Of a DNA stretch of 33,367 bases, positions 16,113 through 17,535 are shown piece by piece (the stretch's first letter is position 1; every line of letters starts with the position of its first letter). The translations under genes were made by a program, and so were the position numbers. The DNA comes from Candidatus Ignatzschineria merdigallinarum (GTDB taxonomy: Bacteria > Pseudomonadota > Gammaproteobacteria > Cardiobacteriales > Wohlfahrtiimonadaceae), in assembly GCA_019113305.1 (NCBI GenBank), contig DXHP01000136.1:1-33367 (forward strand), in the 5' to 3' direction. The notes beneath the pieces are model-generated. The model made no database searches, was not told the DNA's origin, and saw only the letters and a list, made by a program, of their open reading frames with translations.

Positions 16113-16586
16113 ATGACACAACCTAAAAAAGAACAGCTTGAAAATTTGACCTTATTAGGCAATCAAGCAACGGTTTATCCGACAGAATATACTCCTTCGG
16201 TTTTAGAAACCTTTAAGAATGATCATCCAGAGCGTGAGTATTTTGTAAACTTTCATTGTCCAGAGTTTACAACACTTTGTCCTATGACGAATCAGCCTGA
16301 TTTTGCGACGATTTTTATCTCCTATGTTCCTCAAGTTGAGATGGTAGAAAGTAAATCTTTAAAGCTCTATCTCTTTAGCTTTCGTAATCATGGATCGTTT
16401 CATGAAGATTGTATTAACATTATTTTGAATGATTTAATCGCGTTGATGGATCCGCTTTATATTGAAGTTCGAGGAGAGTTTACGCCAAGAGGTGGAATTT
16501 CTATTCATCCTTATGCGAACTATGGAAAACCAGAAACGCGTTGGCAAAATGTTGCGGAACGACGTTTAGAAAGCTTCGAATTTTAA
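16113..16586 (+). CDS. queF: NADPH-dependent 7-cyano-7-deazaguanine reductase
   Basis: Reduces preQ0 to preQ1 in queuosine synthesis, the only known biological nitrile-to-amine reduction. 157 aa, the short single-domain (YkvM) class. The catalytic Cys56 and Asp63 lie in [12 protein letters not shown], and [21 protein letters not shown] is the QueF family motif; the C terminus has [16 protein letters not shown] 16113 is chosen over the track's TTG at 16101, which abuts the AGGAA ribosome site. A preQ1-I riboswitch lies directly upstream, which supports both the identity and product-feedback control. The next gene, yhhQ, imports the same precursors. Confidence 0.97.
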
Positions 16587-16623
16587 TCATGACGAACATG
16601 ATTGATTGTCACAAATTTCATAT

Positions 16624-16757
16624 TTAATAAACAGCAACTCAACGAGATTAAACCTAGCAAAGTCTCTCTCCATTAGGAGAGACAGATGACATATTAATTT
16701 TGCTCCATTCATTAATATTCAAAAATCATCGGATTTCAAAGAGTTGCTGTTTATTAA
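16624..16757. repeat. 134-bp structured element with 17-bp inverted ends, queF-yhhQ spacer
   Basis: Perfect 17-bp ends TTAATAAACAGCAACTC / GAGTTGCTGTTTATTAA enclose 100 bp. Inside are hairpin GTCTCTC / GAGAGAC (16662-16683) and hairpin GATGAcATATTAAT / ATTAATATtcaaaaaTCATC (16685-16730). AAACC (16650-16654) can pair with GGaTTT (16731-16736), extending the outer stem. The RNA would be a three-way junction ending 42 nt before the yhhQ start. It could be a regulatory RNA, or a MITE-like element; no clear target duplication flanks it. Confidence 0.7.
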
Positions 16758-16799
16758 TTTTGTGTTGTCATCGTGATCTCAAAACAGAAAAGGTTTCAC

Positions 16800-17465
16800 A
16801 TGGAACAATTTATATACAGATCGGAAGAAAAATCTCGAGCATTACCTTGGTTGGTGTTATTTCATATTATTGTGATTGCATCGAGTAATTTTTTAGTCCA
16901 AATTCCGATGGAGTTATTTGGCTTTCATTCCACTTGGGGAGCATTTAGTTATCCCTTTATTTTCTTAGCGACAGATTTAACGGTGAGGATATTTGGCGCC
17001 GCACCGGCACGACGAATCATCTTTTTTACGATGTTTCCGGCATTGATTGTCTCTTATCTTATTTCGGTCTTATTCGATGGTGGTGCTTGGCAAGGTTCCA
17101 TGGCTTTTGTGGCATTTAATCGGGGCGTTGCTCAGATCGCTTTTGCTAGTTTTGCTGCTTATGTTATTGGGCAGATGATGGATATCGTGGTATTTAATCG
17201 TTTTAGACAAAATTATCAGTGGTGGATTGCGCCATTTCTTTCCGGCATTATTGGCAATTTAGTAGATACCATCGCTTTCTTCGGCATTGCCTTCTTTAAA
17301 ACAGATGATCCTTATATGGCAGAGCATTTAGTGGAAGTCGCAAGTGTCGATTACTTCTTTAAAATGGGGATTTCAGTCCTTCTATTCTTACCGGCATATG
17401 GCGTGATTTTAAAAGTTATTACGCAATCTTTAATTGGTAAAGCAGCGAGATATCAAGAACCGTAA
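16800..17465 (+). CDS. yhhQ: Queuosine precursor transporter (YhhQ/DUF165)
   Basis: Inner-membrane importer of preQ0/preQ1 (VUT/DUF165 family). About 221 aa with six hydrophobic segments. FHIIVIASSNFLVQIP, WGAFSYPFIFLATDLTVRIFG, FVAFNRGVAQIAFASFAAYVIGQMMDIVVFNR and GNLVDTIAFFGIAFF match the family. The start is ATG 16800 with AAAAGG upstream; the track's earlier start adds nine residues before the ribosome site. It follows queF in the same direction, separated by a 213-bp structured spacer and ending at a strong terminator. Having both enzyme and importer suggests the cell can make preQ1 from preQ0 and also salvage it. Confidence 0.94.
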   Translation: MEQFIYRSEEKSRALPWLVLFHIIVIASSNFLVQIPMELFGFHSTWGAFSYPFIFLATDLTVRIFGAAPARRIIFFTMFPALIVSYLISVLFDGGAWQGSMAFVAFNRGVAQIAFASFAAYVIGQMMDIVVFNRFRQNYQWWIAPFLSGIIGNLVDTIAFFGIAFFKTDDPYMAEHLVEVASVDYFFKMGISVLLFLPAYGVILKVITQSLIGKAARYQEP

Positions 17466-17495
17466 TTAATCTGTTTTGTGAATCTATTGATCGTA

Positions 17496-17535
17496 AAAAA
17501 GCCGAGATATGAGGCAAAATATCTCGGCTTTTTTT
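17496..17535 (+). terminator. Terminator of yhhQ
   Basis: GCCGAGATAT-gaggcaaa-ATATCTCGGC, 10-bp perfect stem flanked by A and T runs. Confidence 0.93.

Follow-up and report, generated by a model that had tools for sequence, protein, structure and literature searches.

We asked what the strong inverted repeat between queF and yhhQ in Candidatus Ignatzschineria merdigallinarum is: a new structured RNA, a mobile element or something else? It lies in the window, the whole 33,367-nt stretch of DNA that was analysed, which belongs to a draft genome (G000; 2.33 Mb in 233 contigs). NCBIfam profiles identified queF as the gene of a type II QueF preQ0 reductase (16113..16586, + strand; TIGR03139, 169 bits, cut-off 86.9) and yhhQ as that of the 7-cyano-/7-aminomethyl-7-deazaguanine transporter (16800..17465, + strand; NF008406, 321 bits, cut-off 252). 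The gap between them is 213 nt long. The two genes follow each other on the same strand, a consensus scan found no sigma-70 promoter in the gap, and an inverted repeat with a T-run follows yhhQ, indicating that queF and yhhQ form one operon. This likely terminator (17495..17534, + strand; a 16-bp stem, a short loop and the T-run) was missed by the consensus scan. Upstream of queF, a preQ1-I riboswitch (RF00522; 16059..16103, + strand; cmscan 47.3 bits, gathering score 39) was the sole Rfam family matched in the window at gathering score, and this match lies outside the inverted repeat. A probable Shine-Dalgarno sequence of yhhQ (AAAAGG, 16788..16793, + strand, assigned from the sequence) also lies outside it, and AAAGGTTTCACATGGAACA at this site is common to the window and a 3.07-Mb, single-contig relative (G004). 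The predicted fold has a further small hairpin, AATCATG...CATGATT, at 16585-16607, directly 3' of the queF stop codon. Short ORFs occur in the gap as well, the interior of which has little or no conservation.

The element spans 134 nt (16624..16757, + strand). Its outer stem is formed by a left arm, TTAATAAACAGCAACTC (16624..16640, + strand), and a right arm, GAGTTGCTGTTTATTAA (16741..16757, + strand), which are perfect complements over 17 bp, as the original prediction had stated. The predicted minimum free energy (MFE) structure also contains the other parts of the proposed three-way junction, namely a 6-bp inner extension (16644-16649/16732-16737), an inner hairpin A (16662..16683) and a bulged inner hairpin B (16685..16730), all on the + strand; these are MFE predictions specific to the window. 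The + strand folds with -40.9 kcal/mol (z -8.3, equalled by none of 200 shuffles) and the - strand with -44.6 kcal/mol (z -7.4). As both strands fold significantly, the fold alone does not tell which one is the RNA. The 17 bp of the outer stem exceed the longest perfect inverted repeat in 400 shuffles of the gap (13 bp), and in the 33-kb window no other perfect repeat of at least 14 bp has a spacer of 40-300 nt.

We then compared the queF-yhhQ gap with that of three Ignatzschineria relatives, G001, G004 and G008. The arms contain a 13-base core, AATAAACARCAAC, which occurs exactly twice in the window genome and exactly twice in G004, in both cases forming one inverted pair between queF and yhhQ. 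The gap of G001 has the same arrangement, except for a single base change in one of the arms. The perfect arms measure 17, 19 and 14 bp in the three carrier genomes, and the arm duplexes have energies of -22.3, -20.2 and -12.8 kcal/mol. The arms of the three sequences (G000, G004 and G001) were anchored by hand in the alignment, since MAFFT had misplaced those of G001. Over the 17 outer-stem pairs, 96% of the cells were paired: 11 pairs are invariant, five changed on both sides (two U-A/A-U, one A-U/G-C, one U-A/C-G and one A-U/C-G) and one is a C.A mismatch in G001 on the + strand. Five such changes were reached in only one of 500 shuffles, and when the partners were shifted by one to three columns, no more than two were counted. 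Thus, three Ignatzschineria genomes have complementary arms in this position, the two arms have changed together, and the covariation expected of a new structured RNA was found for the outer stem.

The interior behaved differently. Its sequence, length and fold differ between the species, which leaves the three-way junction unconserved and private to the window. What is conserved is the outer stem, and the proposal of a structured element is supported for this part alone. In queF and yhhQ, 60-66% of the four-fold sites differ between the window genome and G004 or G001. Neither the upstream flanks nor the interiors can be aligned, save for a weak stretch shared in the same orientation by the window genome and G004. 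Together, this indicates that the arms are held by constraint. The gap of G008 (123 nt) lacks the element and holds an unrelated 10-bp hairpin. As G008 is the sister of the carrier G001 in the yhhQ tree (support 98/99), loss in G008 is the simplest history. For the method, the lesson is that comparison with relatives reduced a conspicuous three-way junction, predicted from one genome, to a single conserved outer stem.

Our preferred reading, to which we give a probability of only about 0.42, is that the element forms an intercistronic stem in the transcript of queF and yhhQ, single-copy and lineage-specific. Rather than being mobile or a new riboswitch, the hairpin probably belongs to the mRNA as a local structure and, by analogy with RNase III-type stem-loops, probably serves in processing or stability. 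We prefer this reading because the stem is unlike a translational switch (see below), both genes point in one direction, the gap has no consensus promoter, and the inverted repeat with its T-run follows yhhQ; gene order and promoter scan are compatible with an intercistronic stem in a co-transcript. In the proposed mechanism, the bicistronic mRNA would start behind the preQ1-I riboswitch and the outer stem would form within it. The stem could then act as a double-stranded landmark, either as a target of RNase III-type processing or as a shield for the upstream 3' end. The messages for the enzyme and the importer would thereby be able to differ in stability. The interior would be mostly spacer, free to change. 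A gene for RNase III (rnc) is present in the genome. Against this reading stand the number of sequences, just three, the lack of the element in G008, the sister of G001, and the weaker stem of G001 with its C.A mismatch.

Known repeat elements provide the analogy. The Correia repeat enclosed element (NEMIS) of Neisseria likewise has inverted terminal arms, measures ∼104-157 bp, lies next to genes and is found within transcripts (PMC2649163); a role in mRNA has been reported for it, as RNase III binds or cleaves its stem (PMC2649163). The enterobacterial ERIC (IRU) element is an intergenic stem-loop of ∼127 bp that alters the stability of neighbouring messages (PMC2229807); we set it beside our element by description, not by sequence. 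Both are multi-copy families, Correia/NEMIS being mobile with a conserved core, whereas the element described here is single-copy, has a non-conserved interior and is conserved in its arms only.

Could the element itself be a mobile element, the alternative named in the original prediction? Like a MITE or a Correia element, it has terminal inverted repeats. However, these families have several copies per genome, whereas the element was single-copy in the window genome and in two related genomes. Near-matches to the core with up to two mismatches were about as frequent as those to a reversed control pattern. A looser two-arm pattern, in a gapped search where the known arm pairs have spacers of 104-105 nt, matched each genome about as often as its control. 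No relatives of the element were found in plasmid and phage collections. The element is therefore a local feature and not a member of a repeat family, and the data do not support a recent MITE. A covariance-model search of 32 genomes missed the query itself, probably owing to the N-filled interior of the model, and is no evidence of absence. As for inverted repeats in general, 400 kb sampled from G004 contained three other perfect ones of at least 14 bp with spacers of 40-300 nt; perfect G004 repeats with long spacers include one of 22 bp and one of 17 bp (L137:1576-1869 and L125:10053-10261).

An old MITE-like insertion with no present function is the strongest of the alternatives, though we consider it unlikely. 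Its symmetry would have survived by chance or by quasi-palindrome correction in replication. The size (110-134 bp), the perfect terminal inverted repeats, the variable interior and the absence from G008 are all in its favour, as is TTAA, a possible target-site duplication, at both ends in the window genome and G004, where it lies within the palindrome itself; in G001 TTAA is missing. The single copy, the control-level near-matches and the lack of plasmid or phage relatives speak against it. Quasi-palindrome correction could match changes in both arms without selection, but by itself it would not preserve the core sequence where ∼60% of the four-fold sites have changed.

The arm core is almost unchanged and might just as well be a site where a protein binds: 11 of its 13 pairs are identical in all three species, which points to constraint on the sequence and not on pairing alone. 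This favours a DNA-binding protein that recognises two operator sites in inverted orientation, or acts on an invertible segment. We nevertheless regard this as improbable, since the motif is not enriched elsewhere, no promoter was found inside the element, and pairing is the simplest explanation of the symmetrical changes in five pairs. Any alignment between the interiors of the window genome and G004 is in the same orientation and gave no support to an inversion between them. The boldest reading, that importer and reductase of a salvage-only queuosine operon are tuned against each other by a new regulatory RNA specific to Ignatzschineria, its arm core being read by a specific protein, appears to us a long shot.

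The element lies before a precursor importer gene and folds strongly, as a preQ1 or preQ0 riboswitch for yhhQ with a three-way junction would, and preQ1 riboswitches of classes I, II and III likewise precede queuosine genes such as yhhQ. Such a sensor had been suggested here, but a new preQ1 riboswitch is unlikely because a preQ1-I riboswitch already stands before queF in this operon, as it does before all Ignatzschineria queF genes checked; we give it very little weight. Among 13 related loci scanned, preQ1-I preceded queF in all eight queF loci, and also yhhQ in the five species in which yhhQ lies apart from queF. The class I riboswitch is 0.5 kb upstream here, and the element fits no class: it gave no match to the preQ1-I, -II or -III models at gathering score, and a relaxed Rfam search of the gap (E<=10) returned chance-level matches only. 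The inner parts, common in neither sequence nor fold, contain no conserved ligand-binding core among the relatives. The yhhQ start follows the right arm by 42 nt in the window, ∼141 in G004 and ∼33 in G001 (with starts assumed from the alignment), a more than 3-fold variation, and the Shine-Dalgarno sequence lies outside the stem, which makes the stem unlike a translational switch. We found no paper naming both Ignatzschineria and a riboswitch. Equally improbable is an antisense small RNA transcribed from the minus strand of the operon: the C.A of G001 would become U.G and the G004 minus fold is stronger in absolute energy, but z-scores have no consistent strand preference, no promoter-like site was found on the minus strand right of the element, and the interior is not conserved.

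Finally, we asked in which lineages the queF-yhhQ operon occurs. A QueD-family protein was absent from the operon-bearing G000, G004, G001, G008 and G011 (provisionally, as several are drafts; G004 is a single contig) and present in all five Ignatzschineria genomes in which queF and yhhQ are separate and each of the two has its own preQ1-I riboswitch. Strong QueC matches split in the same way in the six genomes tested. This suggests that the operon coincides with an apparent loss of de novo preQ0 synthesis, leaving salvage via YhhQ and QueF. Between the operon clade and the five other Ignatzschineria genomes, identity is only 55-57% for YhhQ but 84-86% for QueF; from these identities, yhhQ may have been replaced or exchanged. 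A more distant relative, G023, has two adjacent queF copies before yhhQ (L047:543-1437). If the stem uncouples the queF and yhhQ messages, importer and reductase would stand behind one preQ1-I riboswitch with their levels still set separately, and this arrangement would be found in a lineage apparently without de novo preQ0 synthesis.
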